From assembly GCA_032622095.1 (NCBI GenBank), contig CP136069.1:6650036-6714035 (forward strand): a stretch of DNA of 64,000 nt, in the 5' to 3' direction. The notes below the pieces were generated by a model. That model was given only the letters and a program-made list of their open reading frames with translations, ran no database searches and was not told the origin of the DNA. Of this stretch, positions 5,779 to 42,482 are shown in pieces. The position numbers and the translations under genes were made by a program. The number at the start of each line of letters is the position of its first letter. Position 1 is the stretch's first letter. This stretch comes from Siphonodentalium dalli (taxonomy: Eukaryota > Mollusca > Scaphopoda > Gadilida > Siphonodentaliidae).

Positions 5779-6089
5779 GTGAGTGTCAAATTACTGCCCC
5801 ACGCCAGTGTCATGCACGTCAGACGATCAACAGGAAGTACATGAATTTATTGAATTATATACTTCACATATGACGTTATGTATTTATTGAAGTACATACT
5901 TCACATATGACGATATGTGCAAACGATGCCAATATAACATCACAAACAGGATGTTTTTGCAATGGTTACCGGGTGGTCCAATACTAGAGACAACGTTTCC
6001 ACTCCATAGTATAACATTTCTACTGTTCTTATATATATATATATATCTTTCTTTAATACGTTGACTGCCAACTGCGAGTTGTCTTGTAC

Positions 6090-6300
6090 TTTCTATGTGT
6101 TACTGAGCAGTGAGTGACACCCAATATGTATTACAGATAGTCTATCTCTTCTATGTATTACTGAACAGTGAGCGACACACAATATGTATTACTGAACAGT
6201 GAGTGACACTCAATATGTATTACAGATGGTCTATCTCTTCTATGTATTACTGAACAGTGAGTGACACACAATATGTATTACATATGGTCTATCTCTTCTA
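6090..6300. repeat. Minisatellite of about 58-bp units (unit 2)
   Basis: Three to four units of the gagtgacac-tcaatatgtattac-ggtctatctcttc minisatellite, the shortest of the three alleles present in this window. Confidence 0.85.
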
Positions 6301-14043: not shown

Positions 14044-14344
14044 GTGAGTGTCAAATTACTGCCCCACGCCAGTGTCATGCACGTCAGACAATCAACAGGA
14101 AGTACATGAATTTATTGAATTATATACTTCACATATGACGTTATGTATTTATTGAAGTACATACTTAACATATGACGATATGTGCAAACGATGCCAATAT
14201 AACATCACAAACAGGATGTTTTTGCAACGGTTACCGGGTGGTCCAATACTAGAGACAACGTTTCCACTCCATAGTATAAAATTTCTACTGTTCTTATATA
14301 TATATGCCTTTAATACGTTGACTGCCAACTGAGAGTTGTCTTGT

Positions 14345-15225
14345 ACTTTCTATGTATTACTGAGCAGTGAGTGACACTCAATATGTATTACATATGGTCT
14401 ATCTCTTCGATGTGTTACTGAACAGTGAGTGACACAATATGTATTACTGAACAGTGAGTGACACAATATGTATTACTGAACAGTGAGTGACACAATATGT
14501 ATTACAAATGGTCTATCTCTTCAATGTGTTACTGAGCAGTGAGTGACACTCAATATGTATTACTGAACAGTGAGTGACACTCAATATGTATTGCAGATGG
14601 TCTATCTCTTCGATGTGTTACTGAACAGTGAGTGACACAATATGTATTACTGAACAGTGAGTGACACTCAATATGTATTACAGATGGTCTATCTCTTCAA
14701 TGTGTTACTGAACAGTGAGTGACACAATATGTATTACTGAACAGTGAGTGACACCCAATATGTATTACAGATAGTCTATCTCTTCTATGTATTACTGAAC
14801 AGTGAGTGACACACAATATGTATTACATATGGTCTATCTCTTCAATGTGTTACTGAGCAGTGAGTGACACTCAATATGTATTACAGATGGTCTATCTCTT
14901 CGATGTGTTACTGAACAGTGAGTGACACAATATGTATTACTGAACAGTGAGTGACACTCAATATGTATTACAGATGGTCTATCTCTTCAATGTGTTACTG
15001 AACAGTGAGTGACACAATATGTATTACTGAACAGTGAGTGACACCCAATATGTATTACAGATAGTCTATCTCTTCTATGTATTACTGAACAGTGAGTGAC
15101 ACAATATGTATTACTGAACAGTGAGTGACACTCAATATGTATTGCAGATGTTCTATCTCTTCTATGTATTACTGAACAGTGAGTGACACACAATATGTAT
15201 TACATATGGTCTATCTCGTCTAATA
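14345..15225. repeat. Minisatellite of about 58-bp units, expanded (unit 3)
   Basis: About 15 imperfect units of the same minisatellite as at 2027 and 6090. Two forms alternate, a short acacaatatgtattactga form and a long form with ggtctatctcttc, giving higher-order blocks that repeat near 14,630, 14,930 and 15,000. Confidence 0.9.
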
Positions 15226-16130
15226 AAGGTGCATATAGATTCCAGAGCATAACACAGATTATAGATATGAATCGAGGGCACTTGAATGGGAAAGTCAATT
15301 AATATCAGTTTTATACAGACTTCCTTATGACATTCGTGATATCTTGTTACCACATTCAATAGAGAGAGTTCCAATAGAGAGCACTCTATCTTGTTAGCAC
15401 ACCCAAATGAATGGTATAATAAATTTGCCACGAATTGCGATAAACCACTTTAGAATGACTTTATAGACAAATAGTGCACGTTACACCATCGTTAGTTTTA
15501 TCTGTATTTTATTACGCCTTTATAGACAAATAATGTACACCATCGTCAGTTGTATCTGAAATTTATTCACAAAATAGCTATTTTTAATACTGAAATCTGG
15601 ATTTTAAAAAATATGTTTTAATTGTGGTCTGGAAGCCCATCTTTAAATATAAATACCATCAATTATGGAAAATTTGTTGGCATGTTCGTGCCTGATACCA
15701 TACTAGATGGAAATTTGAGACTAAATGTGAGGTTATGATATTCCAACCAGTATTCAGTGTGAAATGTTTTGTTTTTATACCAAAAACCGAACATATTCTT
15801 ACTGTCTGTCACTTTGTGGACTGAAATGACGATGTGTTGGGAATTTCCAAAAGGATCAGGTGTTGCGTTGGTAGTTTCAATAGTCGGAAAGCTGAGTTAC
15901 CAGTGGCTGCCAAAGAATTTCACGGACTTCCGAAATTTCAGTCTGGTTCAAAGGGGGTGCAGTTGGGAATTCTAGGGTGGACACCCCAATGGAGATAACT
16001 AGATACGTCCCTGGGAAAATTATTGTCTATTTTTATTGTTGTGCCCTAAATTTTTGTTTATGTTTACAAGTTCACATTTTAAAATTGTTTTTTCTTTATT
16101 GTTTATGTTTATTGTTTGTGTCAAACATAG

Positions 16131-20171: not shown

Positions 20172-20996
20172 TGCCGCCAGCGATCAAACATAGCGTAGCG
20201 ATCAAACATGCCGCCAGCGATCAAACATAGCGTAGCGAGGGGACGGGCCAGCGATCCAACATATCGTAGCGAGGGGACGGGCCAGCGATCAAATATAGCG
20301 TAGCGAGGGGACGGGCCAGCGATCAAACATATCGTAGCGAGGGGACGGGCCAGCGATCAAACATAGCGTAGCGAGGAGACGGGCCAGCGATCAAACATAG
20401 CGTAGCGAGGAGACGGGCCAGCGATCAAACATAGCGTAGCGAGGAGACGGGCCAGCGATCAAACATAGCGTAGCGAGGAGACGGGCCAGCGATCAAACAT
20501 ATCGTAGCGAGGGGACGGGCCAGCGATCAAACATATCGTAGCGAGGGGACGGGCCAGCGATCAAACATAGCGTAGCGAGGAGACGGGCCAGCGATCAAAC
20601 ATAGCGTAGCGAGGGGACGGGCCAGCGATCAAACATAGCGTAGCGAGGAGACGGGCCAGCGATCAAACATAGCGTAGCGAGGGGACGGGCCAGCGATCAA
20701 ACATAGCGTAGCGAGGGGACGGGCCAGCGATCAAACATAGCGTCGCGAGGGGACGGGCCAGCGATCAAACATAGCGTCGCGAGGGGACGGGCCAGCGATC
20801 AAACATAGCGTAGCGAGGGGACGGGCCAGCGATCAAACATAGCGTAGCGAGGGGACGGGCCAGCGATCAAACATAGCGTCGCGAGGGGACGGGCCAGCGA
20901 TCAAACATAGCGTCGCGAGGGGACGGGCCAGCGATCAAACATAGCGTAGCGAGGGGACGGGCCAGCGATCAAACATAGCGTAGCGAGGGGACGGAA
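20172..20996. repeat. 34-bp GC-rich minisatellite, about 24 copies
   Basis: Unit ccagcgatcaaacatagcgt followed by agcgaggggacggg. Variants are limited to three sites (agcgtag, atcgtag or agcgtcg; gggg or ggag) and neighbouring units often share a variant, so the array is homogenised and young. Period 34 shifts frame every unit, so it is not coding. It stands out sharply from its AT-rich flanks. Confidence 0.95.
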
Positions 20997-21441: not shown

Positions 21442-21671
21442 TACTTAAATTGAGATCTAATTGCCTGAGAACACATATATATTATCTTATTAGCCTAAGT
21501 ATGATGATGTGCATTCAGGCTGAGTTATTGTGATATCATGCAATAAGCATACAATCATTTACTGCTGACTTATATGGTGTCTAAATTGCCAACAACACTA
21601 TCACTACAAGAAAACTAAGATGCATGCATCAGGTCGGCCGTGAACTATCTACCATAGAATTGTTGTAGCTA

Positions 21672-22061
21672 TCGATTATACATTTTGGAACACCTGTCTG
21701 TATGTATGTGTGTATGCATGAACACATGCATGTCTGTATGTGTTATAGACTCTAACACTGCTCGACTGATCCGACTCGGATTTGGTATTTAACGTGTCAA
21801 CTTGACCTCGCTCATAGGCATGTTTCTGGACCTTGACCGATCCGACTAAAAATTGTGTGTAGGACTACTTCGTCCCGGGAGCAATATGGACGGGTCCAAT
21901 TTCACGTGGGACCATGTTCTCGAACGTGTTGATATAGGCATGTTTCTGGACCAATTGAACAATAGTTTGGCCAGACGCTGTATATACTGGGTACTGTCCA
22001 GATGGAGGCGATCACAAAAAAATCCCTAAATAGCCCGAACGAAGTCGAGTACATCAGCTAG
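21672..22061 (+). mobile_element. Helitron-like element P1 (+ strand)
   Basis: Begins TCGATTATACATTTTGG after a host A and ends with a hairpin-like cccgaacgaagtcgag followed by CTAG. The 5' TC, the 3' hairpin and CTAG are Helitron termini. The body carries a short GT-rich run near the 5' end and the phrase gactgatccgactcgg seen in related copies. No Rep/helicase ORF, so non-autonomous. Confidence 0.7.
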
Positions 22062-22560
22062 TTTAATATATATTTTGGACATTTGTCTGTCTGTTTGTCT
22101 GTTAGCTATGGCCGGGAAAACTGCCTGACAGATTTGACGAAATTTGATACCTAGGGGAAATTATTTCCAGGGAGTATTTTGGACGGGTCAAATCTTGATC
22201 CCGACCTGACTTTGACATTCAAAAAGATCAATTCAAGGTCAAATCTGGTAAAACGGAAGTATTTCAACGCAATTTAATACCTACTGTTACTTTTGTCCCA
22301 GGAGTGTTTCGGGTGGGTCTAATCATGACCTTGACCTGATCTTGACATTCAAAATTGTCAATTCAAGGTCAAATCGGGTAAAGCCGGGCGGATTTCGACG
22401 GGTACTTTTGTCGTGACTTTTGTCCGGGGAGTGTTTTGGACGGGTCAAATCGTGACCCGACATGACGTTCACCTTTAAAATGGTCAACTCAAGGTTAAAT
22501 CGCGCAATTCTCCGAAAATCAGAGGGGAACATCCCGGACGAAGTCGGGTCCACCAGCTAC
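22062..22560 (+). mobile_element. Helitron-like element P2 (+ strand), joined head to tail to P1
   Basis: Follows CTAG of P1 directly with TTTAATATATATTTTGG (TC changed to TT) and ends cccggacgaagtcggg then CTAC before a host T. Internal phrase ttcaaggtcaaat recurs in direct and variant forms, a loose internal tandem repeat of about 120 bp. Confidence 0.65.
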
Positions 22561-25211: not shown

Positions 25212-25295
25212 TAATCATTTTGCTCCACACGTAGACAATATAACAGATTAAGAAAGAAACTGAGAAAAAAATTCACTGAGTCTCTAACTGAAGAT

Positions 25296-27527
25296 ATGAA
25301 CAACATAAATCCGAACAACTCCAAACAATTTTGGAAAGTATTTAATAATTTACACAAAACAAAAACTGTAGCAAAATCGCCAATTACAGACAAACAATGG
25401 ATAGAACACTACACCAAATTACTAACTACCCATGATGATCAATCAATGACGTCTGAACAAATATCTACTGAAAAAAATATATCTGATACAAATCAAGTCG
25501 ATAAAGATACACCATTAGAAAATCAATTTCTAAATAAACCCTTCACATGTTCTGAAATTAAGAAAGGAATAAAAAACCTTAAATCAGACAAGAGAGAAGG
25601 ACCCGATCTTATACTAAATGAATTCATAAAAAGCAGTTCAGACATTCTGTCACTAACTATAACTAAACTATTTAATAAAATACTTGATTGCGGAACTTTT
25701 CCTGAAGAATGGAACCTGTCTTTACTCACATCTATCCAAAAATCTGGTGACCCAACTGACTGTAATAATTATAGGGGAATAAGTATAACCAGCTGTTTGG
25801 GTAAATTGTTCACAAATATTCTACAAAAGAGACTCAGTGAATACTTGGAAACTGAAGATAAGTTATCTATGAACCAAATAGGATTCCGCCAAGGAAGTAG
25901 AACAAGTGACCACATATTTTTTCTGAAAACAATTTTAAATAAATACATTTTATGTGATCAAAAGCAATTATATGCTGCATTTGTTGACTTGAGGAAAGCC
26001 ATTGATAGTATATCAAGACCATTATTATTCAAAAAATTACAAGCGAAAGGTATAAACGGGAAATTTTATAACATAATAACAAGCATGTACTCTAACACTA
26101 TGTATGCTTGTAAATTGGACAATGGTTACAGTGAACCATTTAAAGCAAATATTGGTGTGAAGCAAGGTGATAGTCTTAGTCCAATATTATTTAATTTATA
26201 TGTTGATGATATCACAGAATATATGCACTCCCATCTGTCTGCACCAATATTATTACATGAAACTAAATTTAATCATCTACTATATGCAGATGATTTGGTC
26301 CTCATTTCTGAGACTCAAGATGGTCTGCAAAACTGCCTTGATAGTCTTGAAAGATACTGCAATGATTGGAAGCTAACTGTTAACACTAATAAGACTAAGA
26401 CAATGATATTTTCAAAAAATGTTAATATAGATCACAGTGAACAACATTTCTATTTTGGACCTCTTGAATTGGAGATGGTGGATGAATATAAATATTTAGT
26501 TATTATTTTTCACAAAGGTGGAACCTTAATCAAAGCTGCTGATAGCTTATCAGACAAAGCTAAGAAAGCATATTATGCCATAAAAAGAAAACTAAAGGAT
26601 TATCCAAATTTATCAGTGAAAACATGGATGCAAATAGTCAATTCTATGATAATTCCAATAATGACATATGGATCAGAAATATGGATTTCTGATTTAAATA
26701 TTAACCCTAACTCAATGAAACACATATTTAGTTCATGTGTTGATAAAACTTATACTTCAATCATGAAAGACATACTAGGTGTTAACAGTAAAGCTACAAA
26801 TATTGCAGTATACTCAGAACTCAATACTATACCAACATGCTTAAAAATGTTTCACTCAGCATTCAAATTTCAGAGGAGGTTGATGGAGGTCAGTAAATCT
26901 GGGGACTCATCTTATAGACATAAATTATTAATCTCTGCATTCAATGAAGATAACCTAATTCAGAAAATCAGGCCAAAAATGTCATGGGCTAATTCGTTGA
27001 CTCAAATAGAGAAATTTGTGGGCCAAAAACTCACAATTATGAATGGATCGGAATTAAAAAACTTAATAACAGTTACATATAACTTAAAAGTTGAAAATGA
27101 TTATAAAAGAATTATGAATCTCAATGAAGGTAAACTAAGGTTTTACAGCAAAATTTATGGAATCACCAAACTCCAAGACTATCTCACATATAACATTCCA
27201 AAGGCAAATAGAAGAGAATTGACTAAATTGAGGATTAGTGCTCATGGCCTACATATTGAAACAGGAAGATATACTAGACCAAAAAAAGACGTTTCGGACA
27301 GATTGTGCAACTTTTGTCCCAAACAAGTTGAAGACGAAATACACTTTTTATACTATTGTACTATGTATAAAGACTTGAGAAGAAATTATGACATATTTCA
27401 ACTGGGGGAAAATATTAACAACCCCAAGATGCTGCTTAATCCAAAAACCTTCTTTGCAACAAAGCAAATATGTAATTTCTTCAAAGAAGCCCTAGATAAA
27501 CGTAAATCAAACATACTCTCGAATTAA
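25296..27527 (+). CDS. LINE ORF2-type reverse transcriptase, 743 aa, intact frame
   Basis: Copies element RNA into genomic DNA by target-primed reverse transcription. The reverse-transcriptase domain spans roughly residues 115-390: NYRGISITS finger motif, AFVDLRKAID with catalytic D231, IGVKQGDSLSPILFNLYVDD, and the active-site box YADD with D332 and D333. A thumb-type KTKTMIF motif follows. Near the C-terminus C671-x2-C674-x8-H683-x4-C688 is the CCHC zinc knuckle found after RT in several LINE clades. The usual F of KAFD is I here. The first Met is used as start, but the frame is open 27 codons upstream, so the true protein began further 5' and lost its endonuclease. No stop or frameshift is present, so the copy is young. 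Clade is not assigned. Without the 5' end it is probably not active on its own. Confidence 0.9.
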   Translation: MNNINPNNSKQFWKVFNNLHKTKTVAKSPITDKQWIEHYTKLLTTHDDQSMTSEQISTEKNISDTNQVDKDTPLENQFLNKPFTCSEIKKGIKNLKSDKREGPDLILNEFIKSSSDILSLTITKLFNKILDCGTFPEEWNLSLLTSIQKSGDPTDCNNYRGISITSCLGKLFTNILQKRLSEYLETEDKLSMNQIGFRQGSRTSDHIFFLKTILNKYILCDQKQLYAAFVDLRKAIDSISRPLLFKKLQAKGINGKFYNIITSMYSNTMYACKLDNGYSEPFKANIGVKQGDSLSPILFNLYVDDITEYMHSHLSAPILLHETKFNHLLYADDLVLISETQDGLQNCLDSLERYCNDWKLTVNTNKTKTMIFSKNVNIDHSEQHFYFGPLELEMVDEYKYLVIIFHKGGTLIKAADSLSDKAKKAYYAIKRKLKDYPNLSVKTWMQIVNSMIIPIMTYGSEIWISDLNINPNSMKHIFSSCVDKTYTSIMKDILGVNSKATNIAVYSELNTIPTCLKMFHSAFKFQRRLMEVSKSGDSSYRHKLLISAFNEDNLIQKIRPKMSWANSLTQIEKFVGQKLTIMNGSELKNLITVTYNLKVENDYKRIMNLNEGKLRFYSKIYGITKLQDYLTYNIPKANRRELTKLRISAHGLHIETGRYTRPKKDVSDRLCNFCPKQVEDEIHFLYYCTMYKDLRRNYDIFQLGENINNPKMLLNPKTFFATKQICNFFKEALDKRKSNILSN

Positions 27528-27675: not shown

Positions 27676-27696
27676 GTATATATATATATATATATA
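27615..27696. repeat. (TA)n microsatellite
   Basis: Long AT dinucleotide run broken once by accg at about 27,673. It forms the left flank of Helitron P3, which would suit the AT target preference. Confidence 0.9.
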
Positions 27697-28426
27697 TCTA
27701 TTATATATTTTGAAAGATCTGTGTGTGTGTGTGTGTGTGTGTGTATTTGTCTGTCTGTGTGTAATCGATGGACTCGAAAATGGCCCAGCCGATTTCGATG
27801 AAACTTGGTATGTGGGGGTATTTTCGGGTCAGGAGTAACATAGGCCTATTGATTTTCAGATCCGAGGTCAACTTTTCACGTGCCGAGGTCAAATCTGTTT
27901 TTACGCCGTTTTGCGCTAATATATTTCAGTTCGGTGCTCACAAATCGATTCGATATAGCGCGAATAATAAATTGCCAGTCATATAATTTGCACGGTTAGA
28001 ATCTGTGGCTCTTCATCTTTCCAATGGTGCATCACACGCCTGTGTACGTTTAAAGTTTCTACCTTAATTATCGGGAAGAACGCAGACCATGCTTCGCTCA
28101 TCGAAAATCATTCCGTAAAATATATTACGCCATCAACATATCGTGACGTGTTCGCGTTAACTCTTGACCGGCCGATGTCGCGTTAACTCATCACCGGCCG
28201 AGGTATCCGCAAATGACATTGTCTATATATCTCGGTAACGGGTGGAGCTATCGACTTGAAATTTGGTATGTGAATGTATCTTGCCCCGGATACGAATTTT
28301 ATCGGGTCGCCGAGCCCGTGCGACGCCAGCTTCGCGCATGCGCAGACCAGATCTCGGAAACGGGTGGAGCAATCGACTTGAAATTTGGTTTTTGAATAGC
28401 CCGGACGAAGTCGGGTCACCTTCTAG
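27697..28426 (+). mobile_element. Helitron-like element P3 (+ strand, 730 bp)
   Basis: Starts TCTATTATATATTTTG after host A at 27,696, then a (GT)n run, the phrase actcgaaaatggcccagccg, and two copies of a unit with cgggtggagc-atcgacttgaaatttgg. It ends with hairpin cccggacgaagtcggg, seven bases, then CTAG, followed by host T at 28,427. All termini match the canonical Helitron rule (A|TC...CTAG|T). No ORF of its own. Confidence 0.8.
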
Positions 28427-28647: not shown

Positions 28648-29098
28648 TATGTCTATCTTTATTTATTATGTGCTGTTTCATGTTTATTCAATTTTTGTTT
28701 ACTGTCTCCAGACTTGAGCAAGTTCAATTTCAGTTCGTGATTTAATTAACCGCGAAATCGATATGAGCCAGGGCAAGAGAAATAACTCCATCTTCATGAC
28801 GAGAATATATCACAGCCAATAGACTACGCTTGGCGAGATGCAGGGATATAACTCTTTTAACTTTGCACAATTACTATTTAACGAATCACAAATCGACAGT
28901 ACTGACGATGCAACCAATCGCCCCCTTTTACGTTTCTCCATTTTAATCTACTAGTATTATCATTATTCCTAGTAAATTTGTAACGCTTAATCTCAGGAAC
29001 CGCTAAATACAACAACTACAGCAGACGGCCGATAATTGTGTTCGTACTTGCTTTATGGAGTTATGACCCTTAAACCGGTCACTCACATTTATCGACAA
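28648..29098. other. Host flank left of the Helitron array, no gene seen
   Basis: Unique-looking sequence ending tttatcgacaa. The last A (29,098) is the target base for the array. Contains gagttatgaccctta, a phrase reminiscent of other dispersed repeats, but nothing coding. Confidence 0.4.
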
Positions 29099-29362
29099 CT
29101 AGCTGATGTGCCCGATTTCGTCCGGGCTATTTAGGGATTTATTTGCCAGAAACATGCCTACACGTGTATATATGGGCGTATATGAGCAAGGTCAAGGCCA
29201 AGGACAGGGTCGCACGTGAAATTGGACCCACCCATATTGTTCCCTGGATCAAAGAAGGCCTACATACAACATTTGAGTCGGATCGGTCGAGCTGTTTTCG
29301 AGTCTATAACACGCATACATACATACATATACACATACATACATTCCAAAATATATAATAGA
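29099..29362 (-). mobile_element. Helitron copy H1 (264 bp), outermost 3' end
   Basis: CTAG at 29099-29102 followed by hairpin gcccgatttcgtccgggc. Its 5' end is ccaaaatatataataga. Like P1-P3 it belongs to the gcccga/tccgggc hairpin subfamily and has a short CA-rich tract near the 5' end. Confidence 0.7.
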
Positions 29363-30088
29363 CTAGCAGGTTAGCCCGCCACTGGCGGCAATCGTCAGAA
29401 ACATGACATTTTTAACATTAATTTTTTTAATTTAATTTAATTTTTTTTTTTCAACATGACCCGATTTGACCTTGAATTGATCATTTTCAAGGTCAATGTC
29501 AGGTCGGGGTCACAATTTAACCCGTCCATGACACTTCCCGTAGGTAGCAAGTTTGAGCTCAATCGGTTCGAGTCTATAAAGGACACACACATATATATCA
29601 TTTGTGGGTACCCGTTTCAAGGTGAAGATCACATCGGGCGGAAAAACTGACCCGATGAAAATGTCCCCCGTTCCTATGAAGCCCTACGTACGTAAGAATC
29701 ACACAGAAGCGAGTTCCAATTCGAGCGTGTCCCCCGTTCCTATGAAGCCCTAAGTACGTAAGAATCACACAGAAGCGAGTTCCATTTCGAGCGATAACGT
29801 AAACAAAAGCCGTATGCGAAAGCCGAAGGGAATAAAGAGCGTTAACCGGTTAACGAACCCAAATATGGAAGATATAAGGAGCGTTAGTGCGTTAACACCG
29901 CAGTGCCGTTTTTTGTGACTGAGGGTGGAGAACGGGTGCTCTCAGCTTCTCCAAAACGCCGCGACGACCATACCCGTGGTTTTTTACCCTTAGATGGGAA
30001 GTTTGAGCCCAATCGATGCAGCCGTTTTCGAGTCTATAGAGGACACATATACACATATATTTACGTAGTTCTCAAAATATATAGGAGA
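29363..30088 (-). mobile_element. Helitron copy H2 (726 bp)
   Basis: CTAG plus hairpin ccgccactggcgg at 29376-29388, poly-T tract, then a short direct repeat (ccgttcctatgaagcccta at about 29,671 and 29,733), and 5' end at 30,088. Confidence 0.7.
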
Positions 30089-32383
30089 CTAGCAGGTTAG
30101 CCCGCCACCGGCGGCTTGTCCGAAACATGACATTTTTTTAATTTTTTTTTTTAATTTTTAGCTCCACGCGTTTCAATAAGAAAAATTTGTACCCGGTAGC
30201 TCCACCCGTTTCCGAGATCTGGTCTGCGCATGCGCGAAGCTGGCGTCGCACGGACTCGGCGACCAGATAAAATTTGTACCCGGCGCAAGATACATTCACA
30301 TAGCAAATTTCAAGTCGATAGCTCCACCCGTTTCCGAGATCTCGTCTGCGCATGCGCTGCACGGGTGTCGCACGGGCTCGGCGACCCGATAAAATTTGTA
30401 CCCGGCGCAAGATACATTCACATACCAAATTTCAAGTCGATAGCTCCACCCGTTTCCGATATCTCGTCTGCGCATGCGCTGCACGGGCGTCGCACAGGCT
30501 CGCCAATACGACAGCGACGGCCACCTGGTCAAACTACACTCACGTACCAAGTTTCGTCCCGATCGGTCGAGGTGTTGGTATCTGATGCAAAAGACGAAAT
30601 TGTGAGTGTTGGTCAATAGTCCCCGCCGTGAACCTCATCGTCGCAAAGAGCGGACAGTCAATTAACCCCGTTGTGAACCTCAATCACCAACGCGACGTAA
30701 ACATGTGTTGCGTTCTAAAAATAGGAAAGCACTTTCTCTCTGCTTAATTCTGCAGATGCTAATAACGTTGCTCCCCGTAGGTAGCAATATCGTTGTTGTT
30801 GATATTTACGGCTTGGGGGCTATTTTCTTATTTAGCAAGTTTGAGCTCAATCGGTTCGAGTCTATAAAGGACACACTCATATATATGGCACTTCCCGTGG
30901 GTAGCAAGTTTGAGCTCAATCGGCATTCCCTGGAATTTCCCGTAGATTGGCAGATTCCAGTAGCTTTATAACGATATATCTGGGGAGAAATCTGATGCTA
31001 TATTCGTGATTACCTGGGATGATTTCGGTATATAACTATATACTGTAAAAACAGGTTAGCCCGCCACCGGCGGCTTGTCCGAAACATGACATTTTTTAAA
31101 TATTTTTTTTTAATTTTTAGCTCCACGCGTTTCAATAAGAAAAATTTGTACCCGGTAGCTCCACCCGTTTCCGAGATCTGGTCTGCGCATGCGCGAAGCT
31201 GGCGTCGCACGGACTCGGCGACCCGATAAAATTTGTACCCGGCGCAAGATACATTCACATAGCAAATTTCAAGTCGATAGCTCCACCCGTTTCCGAGATC
31301 TCGTCTGCGCATGCGCTGCACGGGCGTCGCACGGGCTCGGCGACCCGATAAAATTTGTACCCGGCGCAAGATACATTCACATACCAAATTTCAAGTCGAT
31401 AGCTCCACCCGTTTCCGATATCTCGTCTGCGCATGCGCTGCACGGGCGTCGCACGGGCTCGCCAATACGACAGCGACGACCACCTGGTCAAACTACACTC
31501 ACGTACCAAGTTTCGTCCCGATCGGTCGAGGTGTTGGTATCTGATGCAAAAGACGAAATTGTGAGTGTTGGTCAATAGTCCCCGCCGTGAACCTCATCGT
31601 CGCAAAGAGCGGACAGTCAATTAACCCCGTTGTGAACCTCAATCACCAACGCGACGTAAACATGTGTCGCGTTCTAAAAATAGGAAAGCATTTTCTCTCT
31701 GCATAATTCTGCAGATGCTAATAACGTTGCTCCCCGTATGTAGCAATATCGTTGTTGTTGATATTTACGGCTTGGGGGCTATTTTCTTATTTAGCAAGTT
31801 TGAGCTCAATCGGTTCGAGTCTATAAAGGACACACTCATATATATGACACTTCCCGTGGGTAGCAAGTTTGAGCTCAATCGGCATTCCCTGGAATTTCCC
31901 GTAGATTGGCAGATTCCAGTATCTTTTTATAACGGTATATCTGGGGATAAATCTGATGCTATATTCGTGATTATCTGGGATGATTTCGGTATATAACTAT
32001 ATACTGTAAAAACCAAGCGCGCCATCCGTGCTCGCAGGGTTGGTCAGAAACAAATGTTTTTTAAATTTAATGTATGTTCCGTATATCTCTCTGCAGATGC
32101 AAATAGCGTTGAATGGCAAACAGACGCTCTTTATAGAGATGCGTCAAAAACAAACGCTCATTAAATAATCACTTGATTAACCCACGCCGTACCTTTGCGG
32201 TGATTTGAGATTGGAGAACGGGTGCTCTGAGCTTTTCTAAACTGCGACCACGGTCGTGTCGGTGGGATTTGACACTTACATAGGAAGTTTGAGCTCAATC
32301 TGTACACGCGTTTTGGATTCTATGAAGTACACACACACACATATACGAAGTCTCAAAATATATAGTATAGATAGATAGATAGA
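30089..32383 (-). mobile_element. Helitron copy H3 (2.3 kb) containing a 959-bp tandem duplication
   Basis: Copies 30,094-31,052 and 31,053-32,011 are nearly identical. At the joint the second copy starts aggttagcccgcc without its CTAG, directly after actgtaaaaac. Each copy holds a core of about three 122-bp units (gatagctccacccgtttccg, tctgcgcatgcgc, cgtcgcacgggctcg). Tandem-repeat cores are known in non-autonomous molluscan Helitrons of the pearl/HINE type. Frames of 106-129 codons cross the core on both strands and are artefacts. Confidence 0.75.
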
Positions 32384-33156
32384 CTAGCAGGTTAGCCCGC
32401 CACTGGCGGTAATCGTCAGAAACATGACATTTTTTTTTTTTTTTTTTTTTTTTTAATTAATATTTTAAATTAATATTTTAAATTAATATTTTAAATTAAT
32501 TTATTGTTTTTCAATGAGTTAATTGTGCCTTTTTAATTTACTGGCTTTTTTAATTAATTTTGTAATTAATTTTTTTTTTTTTCAATTTGACCCGATTTTA
32601 CCTTGAATTGATCATTTCCAAGGTCAAGGTCAGGTCGGGGTCACAATTTAACCCGTCCATGATACTTCCCGTAGGTAGGAAGTTGATCTCAATCGGTTCG
32701 AGTCTATAAAGGACACACACATATATATCATTTGTGGGTACACGTTTCAAGGCGAAGATCACATCGGGCGGAAAAACTGACCCGATGAAAATCTCCCCCG
32801 TTCCTAGGAAGCCCTAAGTACGCAAGAATCACACAACACGCTCATGTCTGGATACAGTCACGCTCACGCCCGGACCCAGACGTAAGAATCACATTACACG
32901 CATACGCTCTTTATCAACGACACTTCGGATACGAACGCTCTTTAACTATCAACGTGATTAACCCCACAGTGCTGTTTTTTGTGAATGGGAAGGGAGAAGC
33001 GGTGTTCTCCAAAACGCGACGACGACGCGTCCCGTGGATTTTTACCCTTATATAGGAAGTTTGAGCTGAATCCGACCTGCCGTTTTCAAGTCTATAAAGG
33101 ACAAATATACACATATATTTATATATATATACGTAGTTCTCAAAATATATAGTAGA
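32384..33156 (-). mobile_element. Helitron copy H4 (773 bp)
   Basis: CTAG, hairpin at 32397-32409, a long poly-T tract and a small tandem repeat of ttaatattttaaa (32,455-32,505), then the phrases ggttcgagtctataaagga and acacgctcatgtctgg, 5' end at 33,156. Confidence 0.7.
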
Positions 33157-34229
33157 CTAGCAGGTTAGCCCGCCACTGGCGGCATTCGTCTCATGGCTTT
33201 GTTTCAGAAACATGACATTTTTGAATATGAATTTAATGTTTTTTAAATTTAATATATTTTGTTTCTGAATTGTTTTTTTATTGTTAATTTTTTTTAATTT
33301 TAAATTGTTTTAATTAAATTGTAAATTGTTTTAATAAATTTTTTTGTTTCTGGCGGAAAAATTTACCCGTAGAAATCCCCCCTTCCTAGGAACGACAGAC
33401 AACGCATTCTTTGTTTCGTGAAATCTCTATACGATAACATTGCATTGAATTTAAAACAAACGCTTCCCGTCGGGAAATCTGTCTGCATAATATTTTGAGT
33501 CTGCCGTACCCGTCGTAATGTCGTGAAATCTCTCTGCATAATAGATAACATTGCATTGAATCTGTTGTTGGCATTCAGGGCTTCGGGTCGTTGTTGTTGG
33601 CATCACGGCTCCCCGAAAACTCTCACATTGCCGAAAACGTGTATTTAGTAATATCGTTGTTGTTGATATTTACGGCTTGGGGGCTATTTTCTTATTTAGC
33701 AAGTTTGAGCTCAATCGGTTCGAGTCTATAAAGGACACACTCATATATATGACACTTCCCGTGGGTAGCAAGTTTGAGCTTAATCGGCATTCCCTGGAAT
33801 TTCCCGTAGATTGGCAGATTCCAGTAGCTTTATAACGGTATATCTGGGGAGAAATCTGATGCTATATTCGTGATTATCTGGGATGATTTCGGTATATAAG
33901 TATATACTGTAAAAACAAAGCGCGCCATCCGTGCTCGCAGGGTTGGTCAGAAACAAATGTTTTTTAAATTTAATGTATGTTCCGTATATCTCTCTGCAGA
34001 TGCAAATAACGTTGAATGGCAAACAGACGCTCTTTATAGAGATGCGTCAAAAACAAACGCTCATTAAATAATCACTTGATTAACCCACGCCGTGCCTTTG
34101 CGGTGATTTGAGATTGGAGAACGGGTGCTCAGAGCTTCTCCAAAACCCGACAACTACGGTGTTCGTGGGTTTTTACCCTTAGATGGGAAGTTTGAACTCA
34201 ATCGAGCGAACCGTTTTCGATTCTATGAA

Positions 34230-34269
<40 letters not shown>

Positions 34270-36092
34270 GAAGTCTAGGTTAGCCCGCCACTGGCGGCAT
34301 TCGTCCCATGGCTTTGTTCAAAAAAGCAATTGCAACAGGTTCCGAGACACTTGTGCTGCATTTGCAGCAAATTTCGGCAATAGTCAGAAACATGACAATT
34401 TTAATTGAATTTTTTGTTTTTCAATGAGTTAATTATTTTGTTTTTCAATGAGTTAATTGTGCTTTTTAAATTTTTTAATTGAATTTTTTGTTTTTAAATT
34501 GTGCCTATTTAATTTTGTTTTTCAATTTTACCCGATTTTTTTTTTTTTTTCAATGAACCCGTCCATGACACTTCCCGTATTTAGCAAGTTTGAGCTCAAT
34601 CGGTTCGAGTCTATAAAGGACACACACATATATATGACATTTCCCGTAGGTAGCAAGTTTGAGCTCAATCGGCATTCCCTGGAATTTCCCAGTCAATATT
34701 TAGCAAGTTTGAGCTCAATCGGTTCGAGTCTATAAAGGACACACTCATATATATGACACTTCCCGTAGGTAGCAAGTTTGAGCTCAATCGGCATTCCCTG
34801 GAATTTGCCAGTTACCAACGCGGCTAATGTTGGTACATATATAGAGACCAATTGTCCATCGGCTGTCATGTGTAGTGTAGATGTCTTATAAGCCGACATT
34901 GCCGTGGGGATGCCCGTTCCTACACGCGTTTTCGATTCTATGAAGTACCCACATATATACACACATACACACATATATCCGATCGGTCGAGGTGTTGGTA
35001 TCTGATGCAAAAGACGAAATTGTGAGTGTTGGTCAATAGTCCCCGTGGTGAACCCCAACGCGACGTAAACATGTGTTGCGTTCTAAAAATAGGAAAGCAC
35101 TTTCTCTCTGCTTTCGAGCGATAACGTTTGCGTTGGTTTGTAACCGGGATTTCTGAGAAGCATTATGCCTATAACTACCCCCCCCCCTAAGCCCTGACCT
35201 AAGTGTCATACATACTATAACAATGATGTTGTAAGAGTACTACATCCAATAAATCTCCCCGCATAGGAAATGCAGTCAATGTTACCGTATAACTCTGCAG
35301 ATGCGAATAACGTTGAATGGGAAACAGACGCTCTTTATAGAGATGCGTCAAAAACAAACGCTCATTAAATAATCACTTGATTAACCCCCGCCGTGCCTTT
35401 GCGGTGATTTGAGATTGGAGAACGGGTGCTCTGGGCTTCTCTAAACCGCGACCACGATCGTGTCGGTGGTATTTGACACTTACATAGGAAGTTTGAGCTC
35501 AATCTTTACACGCGTTTTGGATTCTATGAAGTACCCACACACACACATATATACGAAGTCTCAAAATATATAGTATAGACTAGCCGATGAGCCCGACGTT
35601 GTCCGGGCTATTCAAACACCAAATTTCAAGTCGATAGCTCCACCCGTTTCCGAGATCTGGTCTGCGCATGCGCGAAGCTGGCGTCGCACGTGCTCGGCGA
35701 CCCGATAAAATTCGTATCCGGGGCAAGATTCATTCACATACCAAATTTCAAGTCGATAGCTCCACCCGTTTCCGAGATTTCGTCTGCGCATGCGCGAAGC
35801 TGGCGTCGCACGGGCTCGGCGACCCGATAAAATTCGTATCCGTGGCAAGATACATTCACATAGCAAATTTCAAGTCGATAGCTCCACCCGTTTCCGAGAT
35901 CCCGTCTGCGCATGCGCGAAGCAGGCGCCGCACGGGCTCGCCAATACGACAACGTCCACCGCCTGATCAAACTACACACACGTACCAAGTTTCGTCCCGA
36001 TCAGTCGAGAATCGTAGATTTGAATAAATGACAGACAAGCAAACATACATCAGACAGACAGACAAAGAGAGGTCTTCAAAATATATATGAGA
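33157..36092 (-). repeat. 2.94-kb tandem segment, copy A (Helitrons H5 and H6)
   Basis: Two elements: H5 at 33157-35579, itself fused from two (internal CTAG and hairpin at 34275-34297 after a (TA)n run), and H6 at 35580-36092 with the gcccgac...gtccgggc hairpin and 122-bp core. The whole block repeats with period about 2,937. Confidence 0.85.
34230..34268. repeat. (TA)n in copy A
   Basis: Dinucleotide run. Equivalent runs at 37,168-37,208 and 40,656-40,710 differ in length, so this site is a variable microsatellite within a recent duplication. Confidence 0.9.
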
Positions 36093-37165
36093 CTAGCAGG
36101 TTAGCCCGCCACTGGCGGCATTCGTCTCATGGCTTTGTTTCAGAAACATGACATTTTTGGATATGAATTTAATGTTTTTTAAATTTAATATATTTTGTTT
36201 CTGAATTGTTTTTTTATTGTTAATTTTTTTTAATTTTAAATTGTTTTAATTAAATTGTAAATTGTTTTAATTAATTTTTTTGTTTCTGGCGGAAAAATTT
36301 ACCCGTAGAAATCCCCCCTTCCTAGGAACGACAGACAACGCATTCTTTGTTTCGTGAAATCTCTATACGATAACATTGCATTGAATTTAAAACAAACGCT
36401 TCCCGTCGGGAAATCTGTCTGCATAATATTTTGAGTCTGCCGTACCCGTCGTAATGTCGTGAAATCTCTCTGCATAATAGATAACATTGCATTGAATCTG
36501 TTGTTGGCATTCAGGGCTTCGGGTCGTTGTTGTTGGCATCACGGCTCCCCGAAAACTCTCACATTGCCGAAAACGTGTATTTAGTAATATCGTTGTTGTT
36601 GATATTTACGGCTTGGGGGCTATTTTCTTATTTAGCAAGTTTGAGCTCAATCGGTTCGAGTCTATAAAGGACACACTCATATATATGACACTTCCCGTGG
36701 GTAGCAAGTTTGAGCTTAATCGGCATTCCCTGGAATTTCCCGTAGATTGGCAGATTCCAGTAGCTTTATAACGGTATATCTGGGGAGAAATCTGATGCTA
36801 TATTCGTGATTATCTGGGATGATTTCGGTATATAAGTATATACTGTAAAAACAAAGCGCGCCATCCGTGCTCGCAGGGTTGGTCAGAAACAAATGTTTTT
36901 TAAATTTAATGTATGTTCCGTATATCTCTCTGCAGATGCAAATAACGTTGAATGGCAAACAGACGCTCTTTATAGAGATGCGTCAAAAACAAACGCTCAT
37001 TAAATAATCACTTGATTAACCCACGCCGTGCCTTTGCGGTGATTTGAGATTGGAGAACGGGTGCTCAGAGCTTCTCCAAAACCCGACAACTACGGTGTTC
37101 GTGGGTTTTTACCCTTAGATGGGAAGTTTGAACTCAATCGAGCGAACCGTTTTCGATTCTATGAA

Positions 37166-37209
<44 letters not shown>

Positions 37210-39031
37210 GAAGTCTAGGTTAGCCCGCCACTGGCGGCATTCGTCCCATGGCTTTGTTCAAAAAAGCAATTGCAACAGGTTCCGAGACACTTGTGCTGCA
37301 TTTGCAGCAAATTTCGGCAATAGTCAGAAACATGACAATTTTAATTGAATTTTTTGTTTTTCAATGAGTTAATTATTTTGTTTTTCAATGAGTTAATTGT
37401 GCTTTTTAAATTTTTTAATTGAATTTTTTGTTTTTAAATTGTGCCTATTTAATTTTGTTTTTCAATTTTACCCGATTTTTTTTTTTTTCAATGAACCCGT
37501 CCATGACACTTCCCGTATTTAGCAAGTTTGAGCTCAATCGGTTCGAGTCTATAAAGGACACACACATATATATGACATTTCCCGTAGGTAGCAAGTTTGA
37601 GCTCAATCGGCATTCCCTGGAATTTCCCAGTCAATATTTAGCAAGTTTGAGCTCAATCGGTTCGAGTCTATAAAGGACACACTCATATATATGACACTTC
37701 CCGTAGGTAGCAAGTTTGAGCTCAATCGGCATTCCCTGGAATTTGCCAGTTACCAACGCGGCTAATGTTGGTACATATATAGAGACCAATTGTCCATCGG
37801 CTGTCATGTGTAGTGTAGATGTCTTATAAGCCGACATTGCCGTGGGGATGCCCGTTCCTACACGCGTTTTCGATTCTATGAAGTACCCACATATATACAC
37901 ACATACACACATATATCCGATCGGTCGAGGTGTTGGTATCTGATGCAAAAGACGAAATTGTGAGTGTTGGTCAATAGTCCCCGTGGTGAACCCCAACGCG
38001 ACGTAAACATGTGTTGCGTTCTAAAAATAGGAAAGCACTTTCTCTCTGCTTTCGAGCGATAACGTTTGCGTTGGTTTGTAACCGGGATTTCTGAGAAGCA
38101 TTATGCCTATAACTACCCCCCCCCCCTAAGCCCTGACCTAAGTGTCATACATACTATAACAATGATGTTGTAAGAGTACTACATCCAATAAATCTCCCCG
38201 CATAGGAAATGCAGTCAATGTTACCGTATAACTCTGCAGATGCGAATAACGTTGAATGGGAAACAGACGCTCTTTATAGAGATGCGTCAAAAACAAACGC
38301 TCATTAAATAATCACTTGATTAACCCCCGCCGTGCCTTTGCGGTGATTTGAGATTGGAGAACGGGTGCTCTGGGCTTCTCTAAACCGCGACCACGATCGT
38401 GTCGGTGGTATTTGACACTTACATAGGAAGTTTGAGCTCAATCTTTACACGCGTTTTGGATTCTATGAAGTACCCACACACACACATATATACGAAGTCT
38501 CAAAATATATAGTATAGACTAGCCGATGAGCCCGACGTTGTCCGGGCTATTCAAACACCAAATTTCAAGTCGATAGCTCCACCCGTTTCCGAGATCTGGT
38601 CTGCGCATGCGCGAAGCTGGCGTCGCACGTGCTCGGCGACCCGATAAAATTCGTATCCGGGGCAAGATTCATTCACATACCAAATTTCAAGTCGATAGCT
38701 CCACCCGTTTCCGAGATTTCGTCTGCGCATGCGCGAAGCTGGCGTCGCACGGGCTCGGCGACCCGATAAAATTCGTATCCGTGGCAAGATACATTCACAT
38801 AGCAAATTTCAAGTCGATAGCTCCACCCGTTTCCGAGATCCCGTCTGCGCATGCGCGAAGCAGGCGCCGCACGGGCTCGCCAATACGACAACGTCCACCG
38901 CCTGATCAAACTACACACACGTACCAAGTTTCGTCCCGATCAGTCGAGAATCGTAGATTTGAATAAATGACAGACAAGCAAACATACATCAGACAGACAG
39001 ACAAAGAGAGGTCTTCAAAATATATATGAGA
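36093..39031 (-). repeat. 2.94-kb tandem segment, copy B (Helitrons H7 and H8)
   Basis: Almost identical to copy A throughout; differences seen are length changes in the (TA)n, poly-T and poly-C runs plus rare single bases. H7 is 36093-38518 and H8 38519-39031. Confidence 0.85.
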
Positions 39032-40653
39032 CTAGCAGGTTAGCCCGCCACTGGCGGCATTCGTCTCATGGCTTTGTTTCAGAAACATGACATTTTTGGA
39101 TATGAATTTAATGTTTTTTAAATTTAATATATTTTGTTTCTGAATTGTTTTTTTATTGTTAATTTTTTTTAATTTTAAATTGTTTTAATTAAATTGTAAA
39201 TTGTTTTAATTAATTTTTTTGTTTCTGGCGGAAAAATTTACCCGTAGAAATCCCCCCTTCCTAGGAACGACAGACAACGCATTCTTTGTTTCGTGAAATC
39301 TCTCTACGATAACATTGCATTGAATTTAAAACAAACGCTTCCCGTCGGGAAATCTGTCTGCATAATATTTTGAGTCTGCCGTACCCGTCGTAATGTCGTG
39401 AAATCTCTCTGCATAATAGATAACATTGCATTGAATCTGTTGTTGGCATTCGGGGCTTCGGGTCGTTGTTGTTGGCATCACGGCTCCCCGAAAACTCTCA
39501 CATTGCCGAAAACGTGTATTTAGTAATATCGTTGTTGTTGATATTTACGGCTTGGGGCTATTTTCTTATTTAGCAAGTTTGAGCTCAATCGGTTCGAGTC
39601 TATAAAGGACACACTCATATATATGACACTTCCCGTGGGTAGCAAGTTTGAGCTCAATCGGCATTCCCCGGAATTTCCCGTAGATTGGCAGATTCCAGTA
39701 GCTTTATAACGGTATATCTGGGGAGAAATCTGATGCTATATTCGTGATTATCTGGGATGATTTCGGTATATAAGTATATACTGTAAAAACAAAGCGCGCC
39801 ATCCGTGCTCGCAGGGTTGGTCAGAAACAAATGTTTTTTAAATTTAATGTATGTTCCGTATATCTCTCTGCAGATGCAAATAACGTTGAATGGCAAACAG
39901 ACGCTCTTTATAGAGATGCGTCAAAAACAAACGCTCATTAAATAATCACTTGATTAACCCACGCCGTGCCTTTGCGGTGATTTGAGATTGGAGAACGGGT
40001 GCTCAGAGCTTCTCCAAAACCCGACAACTACGGTGTTCGTGGGTTTTTACCCTTAGATCAGGGGGGGGTCGGAAAAAAAATTCAGGCACGTATGGCATTT
40101 TTTCCCTTTCGATCATTTTTTGTACCCACCCACCCCCACCGCCAATTTTTTTTCCGTTTTCGGCAGTTTTTTCCGACCATTTTTTGACACCCACCCCCCT
40201 TTTAACACTAAAACAGAGATTTTCGGGGGGAAATTCACTGTAAACAGCTGTATATGAATTTCTGTGCATACTATTTATCATGGATGTTAACATGGACATG
40301 TAAATAGGAATGAGTCATTTTGAGGTCATTCGGCCAAAAAAACATGGCTGCCAGCGGCCATCTTGGATTTCAATATTTGCAACAAAATACAACACGATAA
40401 CTGCCTTCAGTCAGTTTACCAGTTAGAATTACATTATTTCTCTCTTTCAAAGTGGTTTTGAATCCCAACTCATTGCCAAAACACTAAAAAACAAGTAGGA
40501 TTTTTTTTTTTTAGTCGCGGAAAAAATTGCTTGTTGGTGGCTTTGACCACCCACCCACCCCGGCATACGTGCCGGAATTTTTTTTTTCACCCCCCCCCCT
40601 GCTTAGATGGGAAGTTTGAACTCAATCGAGCGAACCGTTTTCGATTCTATGAA

Positions 40654-40711
<58 letters not shown>

Positions 40712-42030
40712 GAAGTCTAGGTTAGCCCGCCACTGGCGGCATTCGTCCCATGGCTTTGTTCGAAAAAGCAATTGCAACAGGTTCCGAGACACTTGTGCTG
40801 CATTTGCAGCAAATTTCGGCAATAGTCAGAAACATGACAATTTTAATTTAATTTTTTGTTTTTCAATGAGTTAATTATTTTGTTTTTCAATGAGTTAATT
40901 GTGCTTTTTAAATTTTTTAATTTAATTTTTTGTTTTTAAATTGTGCCTATTTAATTTTGTTTTTCAATTTTACCCGATTTTTTTTTGTTTTTCAATGAAC
41001 CCGTCCATGACACTTCCCGTATTTAGCAAGTTTGAGCTCAATCGGTTCGAGTCTATAAAGGACACACACATATATATGACATTTCCCGTAGGTAGCAAGT
41101 TTGAGCTCAATCGGCATTCCCTGGAATTTCCCAGTCAATATTTAGCAAGTTTGAGCTCAATCGGTTCGAGTCTATAAAGGACACACTCATATATATGACA
41201 CTTCCCGTAGGTAGCAAGTTTGAGCTCAATCGGCATTCCCTGGAATTTGCCAGTCACCAACGCGGCGTAATTTTGGTACATATATAGAGACCAATTGTCC
41301 ATCGGCTGTCATGTGTAGTAAAGATGTCTTATAAGCCGACATTGCCGTGGGGATGCCCGTTCCTACACGCGTTTTCGATTCTATGAAGTACTCACATATA
41401 TACACACATACACACATATATCCGATCGGTCGAGGTGTTGGTATCTGATGCAAAAGACGAAATTGTGAGTGTTGGTCAATAGTCCCCGTGGTGAACCCCA
41501 ACGCGACGTAAACATGTGTTGCGTTCTAAAAATAGGAAAGCACTTTCTCTCTGCTTTCGAGCGATAACGTTTGCGTTGGTTTGTAACCGGGATTTCTGAG
41601 AAGCATTATGCCTATAACTACCCCCCCCCCCCTAAGCCCTGGCCTAAGTGTCATACATACTATAACAATGATGTTGTAAGAGTACTACATCCAATAAATC
41701 TCCCCGCATAGGAAATGCAGTCAATGTTACCGTATAACTCTGCAGATGCGAATAACGTTGAATGGGAAACAGACGCTCTTTATAGAGATGCGTCAAAAAC
41801 AAACGCTCATTAAATAATCACTTGATTAACCCCCGCCGTGCCTTTGCGGTGATTTGGGATTGGAGAACGGGTGCTCTGGGCTTCTCTAAACCGCGACCAC
41901 GATCGTGTCGGTGGTATTTGACACTTACATAGGAAGTTTGAGCTCAATCTTTACACGCGTTTTGGATTCTATGAAGTACCCACACACACACATATATACG
42001 AAGTCTCAAAATATATAGTAAGAAGATAGA
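39032..42030 (-). repeat. 2.94-kb tandem segment, copy C (Helitron H9, with MITE insertion)
   Basis: Matches copies A and B up to the end of H5/H7 but lacks the H6/H8 part and carries a 543-bp MITE. A few more substitutions than between A and B (for example cattccccgg for cattccctgg), and its last joint differs, ending gtaagaagataga. Confidence 0.85.
40059..40601. mobile_element. hAT-like MITE (543 bp) in copy C, with target duplication
   Basis: Inverted ends: cagggggggg-tcggaaaaaaaattc on the left, and on the right the complement of cagggggggggtgaaaaaaa, followed inward by ggcacgtatggca against cggcatacgtgcc. Flanked by cttagat at 40052-40058 and 40602-40608; copies A and B have a single cttagat. 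TIRs starting CAGGGG with guanine and adenine runs resemble hAT elements of the Charlie type, which usually make 8-bp duplications; 7 bp are visible here. No ORF. Confidence 0.85.
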
Positions 42031-42124
42031 CTAGCAAGTTAGCCCGCCACTGGCGTGGTTCGTCTCATGGCTTTGTTCGAAAAAGCATATACATATATAC
42101 GTAGTTCTCAAAATATATAGTAGA
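42031..42124 (-). mobile_element. Helitron remnant H10 (94 bp), outermost 5' end
   Basis: Has CTAG and a broken hairpin (ccgccactggcgt), then ctcaaaatatatagtaga before host T at 42,125. Internally deleted but both termini are kept. Confidence 0.7.
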
Positions 42125-42482
42125 TGACAGAGTATCTCTTGGATGCATTGGGGTAACGGATCGTGACAACTATTGTGATGTAGAACAACTTAAACTTAAA
42201 ATTATTTCATTTCTAAAAATTATCTCCCATCGCGACCAAACTTACATGTCATGGTCTAAGTATCACCTCAATAACGATGCTGTGAACAATTGCCCGGGTA
42301 ACCGGCACCTGAATGCTGTAAAATTGACACAAACTTCCTTGTGGACACAACTCCTCCCAAGCCGATGCTCGGATGAAGGCGGAGTTTGTGATGAATCAAC
42401 ATTCTACATGTATGAACGAGGATACACGCGAAATTTGGCATCGTCGGGCGAAAACTGGTTAGAGGCACGAAGAATCAGATGA
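42125..42482 (+). other. Open reading segment of unknown origin
   Basis: From the array edge a frame is open to TGA at 42480 (the ATG at 42246 is internal). It reads GCIGVTDRDNYCDVEQLKLK early and VCDESTFYMYERGYTRNLAS late. Composition is protein-like, but I recognise no family. It may be a host exon or pseudogene fragment, or part of the decayed LINE that follows. Confidence 0.3.

Follow-up and report, generated by a model that had tools for sequence, protein, structure and literature searches.

Serial, 5'-ward insertion at target-like left ends as the probable origin of a Helitron array in the scaphopod Siphonodentalium dalli

Introduction

Tandem or head-to-tail Helitrons have been reported from bat, maize, rice, silkworm, Drosophila and fungi, and both termination bypass and serial insertion have been proposed for them (statements on published work refer throughout to the portions of the sources consulted). 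Maize Helitrons are reported to land preferentially near other Helitrons (PMC3288121). Whether tandem Helitrons are read-through concatemers or products of serial insertion has been argued both ways. Here, we describe an array of ten Helitron units that decides the question for its own locus. It occupies positions 29099..42124, minus strand, of a 64,000-nucleotide stretch (the window) of the Siphonodentalium dalli genome (assembly GCA_032622095.1, contig CP136069.1, here C9; C9:6650036-6714035). We put at about 0.8 the probability that separate Helitron insertions built up the array as a stack, which grew 5'-ward through the likeness of the elements' own 5' ends to their target and was then altered by unequal exchange.

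Results

Nine minus-strand joints at which CTAG is fused to TC with zero bases between (29363, 30089, 32384, 33157, 35580, 36093, 38519, 39032 and 42031) delimit ten units, U1 to U10, of 264, 726, 2295, 773, 2423, 513, 2426, 513, 2999 and 94 bp, respectively. In minus-strand sense, every unit reads TC, hairpin, CTAG, with the next TC immediately after (TC...CTAG in 10/10 units), in the order U10-U9-U8-U7-U6-U5-U4-U3-U2-U1, so that U1 is 3'-most; the outer flanks, in element sense, are an A at the 42125 side and a T at the 29098 side. Canonical Helitron traits are therefore present: a 5' TC, a 3' CTRR-type end and a hairpin shortly before the 3' end. The type A hairpin, GCCGCCAGTGGCGGGC, is exact in U2, U5, U7 and U9 and altered in U3, U4 and U10, and the type B hairpin, GCCCGGACAACGTCGGGC, is exact in U6 and U8 and altered in U1. 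By eye, the palindrome of either type lies 7 bases before CTAG, and it is altered in U10. A preliminary description of this DNA had reported the Helitron identity, the single strand, the nine exact joints, the outer A and T, and two hairpin types side by side, all of which the sequence bears out. It had offered a concatemer inserted in one event as the origin, while suspecting serial insertion into the CTAG|TC joint.

The order of events at the locus can be read from paralogs of the host site. The left and right host flanks (28949..29098 and 42125..42274; 150 + 150 bases), joined and used as a query, gave 84 matches (the best 40 of 604 candidates were scored), of which 37 were a single alignment across the joint; the host site is thus a repeat. 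The five of these that were fetched (L052-L056) were continuous through A|T (...ATTTATCGACAA|T...) without insert or duplication (5/5), as expected of elements that enter between A and T and duplicate no target bases. These paralogs, rather than an allele, provide the empty site for which the preliminary description had proposed to look. At other loci, T begins 12/12 host 3' flanks (those of the second set described below; in the first set, T belonged to the search pattern), and A precedes 12/12 outer 5' ends judged to be host-flanked. The host repeat also occurs in evenly spaced copies, 1,222 bases apart, at C9:147925022-147930046 and C4:139531801-139539269.

A further paralog, L051 on C8, is split at exactly the same host point as the window array. 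Its identity to the window was 90.8% in the left host flank, 92.0% in U1 and 87.5% in the right host flank (gaps not counted); its copy of U1 lacks the last bases, including CTAG. At U1's A|TC boundary, L051 carries one complete 646-bp type B Helitron, whose 5' TC abuts host DNA. Because U1 and its flanks are equally diverged, U1 was most likely in place before the two host copies parted, and because the same U1 at the same host base has a different front neighbour in L051, U1 came first, before its present front neighbours reached the host repeat, and the array grew 5'-ward. One concatemer inserted once is excluded for the array, unless L051 is a collapsed larger array, which needs two exact deletions. 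The single-event reading of the preliminary description fails on this evidence, in that L051 holds the same U1 with another neighbour and adjacent units are mostly unlike; indeed, a site missing only part of the array, which that description had named as refuting evidence, is what L051 shows. The suspected serial insertion, in turn, is borne out by the shared U1 and the different element stacked on it. The CTAG|TC joint need not have a special status in this: the outermost 5' boundary, A|TC, does not differ from other A|T targets, and shifted joints, described below, lie at another A|T inside the resident's 5' end.

Arrays of this kind are not confined to the window. The single assembly searched (2.23 Gb, 9 contigs) contained the exact type A 3' end followed by T 10,794 times (5,327 + 5,467), whereas the reversed-pattern control gave 0. 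TC came next after 6,725 of the 10,794, compared with C after 15% of the A|T sites of the window outside arrays; the pattern is thus beyond chance on both counts. Among the first 100 listed places (C1:1.45-24.6 Mb), 70 were clustered (neighbour within less than 5 kb), where chance at the mean genome density would give 2.4% for the next neighbour, and the strand was the same in 49/49 neighbour pairs within 5 kb. The clustering, the common strand and the excess of TC together indicate that arrays like that of the window are common for the type A 3' end. We compared 64 pairs of adjacent units (one L019 pair being a duplicate from an internal start): 14 were homotypic, 27 partly similar and 23 unrelated, that is, without an alignment of at least 100 bases. 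Homotypic neighbours were 97-99.6% identical, about as alike as copies at other loci, and neighbour identity is for this reason uninformative as a test between concatemer and insertion. Shared multi-unit blocks were likewise not decisive as a sign of multi-unit transposition, as the longest 45 of 157 joint-spanning alignments were mostly homotypic runs. Within the window, two U1-like type B Helitrons at 21660-22560 (+) form a second array, which is older and decayed; the first CTAG in it is followed by TTTAATATATATTTTGG at ~22062.

We examined what Helitrons choose as a target by reading the DNA beyond their 3' ends. Of the first 100 type A 3' ends, 50 were followed by TC, 13 by the exact shifted joint and 37 by other sequence; 60 bases were fetched after 40 of them, namely 30 of the 37 others (7 in dense clusters were omitted) and 10 of those with TC. 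Twenty-three of the 40 flanks were host DNA and 17 were Helitron left terminal sequence (LTS), including 10/10 of those with TC. Before the removal of duplicates, TATA occurred within 16 bases in 23/23 host flanks, and the TATA score of these flanks exceeded that of AT-matched A|T sites (p 0.0002, duplicates still included). After duplicates and possible LTS were dropped, 17 flanks remained, and a second set of 12 was screened likewise from L009-L048, with the window excluded. TATA lay in the first 16 bases of the host 3' flank in 17/17 and 11/12 (expected at 15.6% of A|T sites) and at exactly offset 5 in 12/17 and 5/12 (expected 1.1%), with 42 kb of the window as background; pooled, the two sets give 28/29 within 16 bases and 17/29 at the A|T-N4-TATA spacing. 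On the 5' side, TATA was found upstream of 1/12 outer 5' ends.

Together with the A before it, the Helitron 5' terminus reads A|TCNNNTATATATTTTG. Six of the seven variants listed have TATA at offset 5, the termini being TCTAC, TCTCC, TCTCA, TCTAT, TCTAA and TCTTC plus TATATATTTTG, and the outermost 5' terminus of the window array, TCTACTATATATTTTG (42109..42124, minus strand), reads A|T-N4-TATA with the host A. The left end of the element therefore resembles the target of the element in both direction and spacing. This bears on orientation: AT reads alike on both strands, so that a rule of A|T and nothing more would permit both orientations, and the missing asymmetry is supplied by the host flanks, with their one-sided TATA. 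A head-to-head joint of the TCTATAC-type 5' end with itself was found 0 times genome-wide (one 5' variant searched), against 1,024 head-to-tail joints. Elsewhere in the window, a Helitron-like 5' end, TCTATTATATATTTTGAAAGATC, lies at the edge of a TA microsatellite at 27696-27715 (+).

A second class of joints points to landing on resident elements. At 20 loci of 10 kb and in the window, we read 90 type A or type B 3' ends ending in CTAG: 62 abut an element 5' end at its TC, 12 abut one that starts at TAC, and 16 run into other DNA. The offset is identical in all 12 TAC-start joints. The shifted joint corresponds to an A|T site four bases inside the resident 5' end (TCTA|TAC; TATATATTTT is a stretch of a resident Helitron 5' end), and the shifted TAC start has TATA at offset 5. 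Genome-wide, there were 656 TCTA|TAC joints and 1,024 canonical joints to the same 5' end, but only 2 joints at a position two bases off that reads C|T and served as the control. The shifted starts do not represent a second donor start site: where the start was preceded by A with a non-T before it, the shifted start occurred 6 times and the normal start 241 times, so that TAC is not a usual donor start. Landing at TCTA|TAC must leave TCTA in front of the new element. In a small, hand-assigned comparison (L022 and L039 omitted as unclear; L011 not visible to its end), such an outer TCTA-type stub was present in 7/9 arrays that could be followed from the outer 5' flank to a shifted joint (L018, L030, L035, L036, L040, L043 and L047) and in 1/10 without (L025; Fisher p 0.0055). 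The outer flank of L040 lies inside another Helitron; with this locus dropped, the counts were 6/8 and 1/10 (p 0.013). Pairs of stub and shifted joint are not made by a concatemer.

The stack was remodelled afterwards. U5+U6, U7+U8 and U9 form a higher-order repeat: U5 and U7 differ by 2 bases and by short gaps, U6 and U8 by 0/513. U5, U7 and U9 each contain a broken internal joint (34275, 37215 and 40717), and the exact fused-joint sequence has 3 copies genome-wide, all inside the window array; being private to the array, it marks these units as local copies. At unit positions 1799 and 2151, U7 has the base of U5, and at 2356 that of U9, the other base being present each time in 35/35 other aligned copies; at 2244, U7 and U9 have A, and the other copies 25 A and 10 T. 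Base differences further 5' all group U7 with U5. The pattern is the expected product of one unequal crossover, U5 x U9, in an eight-unit ancestor, which added U7+U8. Unequal crossover, which the preliminary description had left out of its account of the array's origin, thus made two of the ten units. That description also mentioned neither the higher-order repeat, nor the broken internal joints, nor the insert in U9 described below. Joint spacings suggesting higher-order repeats were also found at C1:49.03 Mb (1301, 1118, 1302, 1301, 1118, 1301) and C1:99.52 Mb (2408, 3419, 2414, 3417). Furthermore, five joints of L014 (C8:119469328-119479327) read CTATTC in place of CTAGTC; one change spread over five joints indicates that amplification after insertion also occurs.

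The individual units, all on the minus strand, are as follows from the 3' end. U1 (29099..29362, type B hairpin), whose 3' end stands against the host T, is the oldest unit and is the one common to L051. It is followed by U2 (29363..30088, type A hairpin, 5' TCTCC...) and U3 (30089..32383, type A, 5' end TCTATCTATCTATCTATAC), which has an internal 960-bp direct repeat and a second hairpin at ~31052 without CTAG and is another fused multi-unit element. U4 (32384..33156) is of type A and begins TCTAC.... U5 (33157..35579, type A) consists of two elements fused via the broken joint at 34275-34278; U7 (36093..38518) is a chimera of the 5' part of U5 and the 3' part of U9; and U9 (39032..42030) repeats the fused unit a third time, interrupted by an insert of ~546 bp (40059..40605) that has no counterpart in U5 or U7. 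By eye, this insert has inverted CAGGGGGGG-type ends with TTAGAT on both sides and looks like a miniature inverted-repeat transposable element. U6 (35580..36092, type B hairpin) and U8 (38519..39031) have the same sequence, and the short U10 (42031..42124) places the outermost 5' end against the host A.

A candidate autonomous element was sought with the Helitron_like_N profile, which gave 151 genome matches (the best 150 of 457 candidates were scored). One match, C1:13743912-13744451, lies inside a 42-kb stretch with 19 same-strand type A 3' ends in three clusters. In the 9.6 kb fetched around this match (L050), an 8.7-kb unit starts at the joint CTAG|TCTATCTTCTATCTCATATATATTTTGAAGACC and has a frame of 1613 aa with the domains PF14214, PF05970 and PF21530 (Rep + Pif1-type helicase, RepHel). 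The frame contains HSH and YVCKY motifs, which we take to be the HUH and two-Tyr features of Rep. L050 ends in a type B hairpin and CTAG with the next 5' end directly after, so the RepHel element is itself an array unit, and its ends resemble those of U6/U8 apart from extra bases at its front. We infer that the L050 protein moves the window units; given the shared 5' end motif, the same protein likely also moves type A elements.

Outside the arrays, the window holds a 770-codon open frame at 25215-27527 (+) that by eye has the look of a reverse transcriptase of the long interspersed nuclear element type, and a 34-bp tandem repeat in 24 copies at 20176-20994. Within the first 18 kb lie some three copies of a segment with the same minisatellites (~1780-2692, 5841-6300 and 14106-15567), perhaps through local segmental duplication.

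Discussion

The following sequence of steps would account for the array. RepHel would choose an A|T with TATA four bases on, on one side only, and the Helitron 5' terminus, A|TCNNNTATATATTTTG, would serve as such a site. If the element's own 5' terminus is a target, every inserted copy would bring a new target with its 5' end, always in one orientation. The CTAG of the newcomer would be joined to the resident's T, and its TC to the host A or, where a TCTA stub is left, to the A of that stub. Arrays would then grow 5'-ward, mixing families that share a transposase, and unequal exchange would remodel the stacks into satellite-like higher-order repeats and larger fused elements.

Several observations weigh against this reading. 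The absence of head-to-head joints could partly reflect the loss of unstable perfect palindromes. At its outer boundary, the TCTATAC terminus has TATA at offsets 2, 7 and 9, not 5, yet forms 1,024 canonical joints; it is for this exception that the shift to TAC was counted, and the shift restores offset 5. The target of U1 in the window, TTGTCGATAAATG, has GATAAA at offset 5, one base off TATA; it stands outside the 29 flanks, and adding it gives 28/30. As for the stubs, none is present in L013 despite its two shifted joints, that of L027 stands one unit further in, and L025 carries a stub yet has no shifted joint. Insertion by itself does not account for homotypic runs, and some of these, such as the CTATTC joints of L014, show that local amplification also makes joints. 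Finally, L051 could in principle be the collapsed remnant of a larger array, at the cost of the two exact deletions noted above.

Other explanations share some of this evidence. If these elements merely preferred A|T sites in AT-rich DNA, with the bias greatest on the 3' side, stacking would be a by-product of AT-rich 5' ends, and the element's own end would play no special role; Helraiser does prefer AT-rich DNA within ~20 bp, mostly on the 3' side (PMC4778049). We consider this unlikely: the TATA score surpasses that of AT-matched sites, TATA has a preferred spacing, and with ~240 million A|T sites genome-wide (extrapolated from the window), AT-richness by itself would not be expected to bring most 3' ends up against the 5' end of a resident. 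It is also improbable that the arrays arose mostly by unequal crossing-over, that is, from a few founder pairs followed by satellite-like amplification. The U7 chimera, the private fused joint and the higher-order spacing at C1:49.03 Mb fit such a process, but crossing-over does not create first joints between unrelated families, and U1, U2, U3, U4, U5, U6 and U10 need separate insertions. It is in any case not exclusive of serial insertion and forms the second stage of the explanation that we favour.

The two explanations that involve multimers or circles fare worse. In a rolling-circle concatemer, the transposase passes the 3' terminator and head-to-tail multimers are inserted in one event, which is the supposed origin of the clusters in bat and silkworm (PMC4067079). 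The exactness of the CTAG|TC joints and the single orientation fit this, as do homotypic runs such as the four units of 1115-1116 bp in L009-L010 and the two of 1132 bp in L024. However, a concatemer predicts units that are alike and all present or absent together, whereas neighbours mostly differ, U1 is common to L051, which lacks the rest of the array, and shifted joints come with stubs; we regard it as very improbable here. Hardly any weight falls to homologous recombination of a Helitron circle with a CTAG-TC joint into a resident copy, resulting in a tandem pair. Helraiser is known to form circles with exact joints (PMC4778049), and the integration of such circles would yield both the orientation and the exact joints of homotypic runs, but 23/64 adjacent pairs have no alignment of at least 100 bases, and this route would make neither the TCTA stub with its shifted joint nor the different neighbour of U1 in L051.

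Beyond serial insertion as such, we lean slightly toward the view that the 5' terminus mimics the RepHel target (A|T-N4-TATA, resembling a TATA box), so that one recognition step would serve both the donor left-end nick and the choice of target. RepHel would then read the 5' end and the target by the same contact, as would fit the determinants in the terminal 40 bp of Helraiser, its AT-rich 3' side and the AAA motif of barley targets. If the mimicry is real, every copy would be a preferred, oriented landing pad, and ordered 5'-ward stacks would preserve a record of how they formed and would give rise to satellite-like arrays and to larger fused Helitrons. The thousands of joints in this genome provide a rule open to bench experiments, namely that a target is chosen for its resemblance to the left end of the element itself. 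If general, this rule would explain why maize Helitrons are reported to lie near one another (PMC3288121), how arrays and large Helitrons originate, and how RepHel recognizes its target.

Among the described systems, a published pair of two different Helitrons likewise has an exact CTAG|TC joint, and its authors saw that host A and element T make up the canonical AT target. That pair comprises two elements only, with their order unresolved and, in the portion consulted, no motif beyond AT. The clusters of bat and silkworm are likewise tandem and head-to-tail (PMC4067079, PMC5876387); they have been read as termination bypass, whereas the order and the mixed families of the window show serial stacking. 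In Fusarium/Metarhizium, three elements in tandem were found once, with multiple 5' termini, and 5'-end insertion twice or rolling-circle replication was considered (PMC5148889); these are few cases, of non-canonical Helitrons and with an unresolved origin (PMC5148889). The insertion at A|T seen here differs from the T-rich insertion site described (PMC4067079) for Helentron / DINE-1 (HINE) elements, a group also marked by sub-terminal inverted repeats. Helraiser, the reconstructed bat element, shares the AT target, the head-to-tail circles and the AT-rich 3' side, and has its cleavage determinants in the terminal 40 bp (PMC4778049), but its re-insertions were unclustered near donors, and the portion consulted mentions no array formation (PMC4778049). 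The closest parallel in target is that of barley, with AAA from 8 bp downstream of A-T, one-sided and at a similar distance (PMC5738225); in the text consulted, neither stacking nor the 5' end of the element itself is brought into connection with the motif (PMC5738225). Its similar one-sidedness suggests that the mimicry may be old and general. A literature search, mostly of papers available without subscription and covering parts of their text, gave no account that ties stacking to the likeness between left end and target. Thus, as far as these comparisons go, the Helitron array itself is of a known kind, and self-mimicry as the reason for its form appears to be new.

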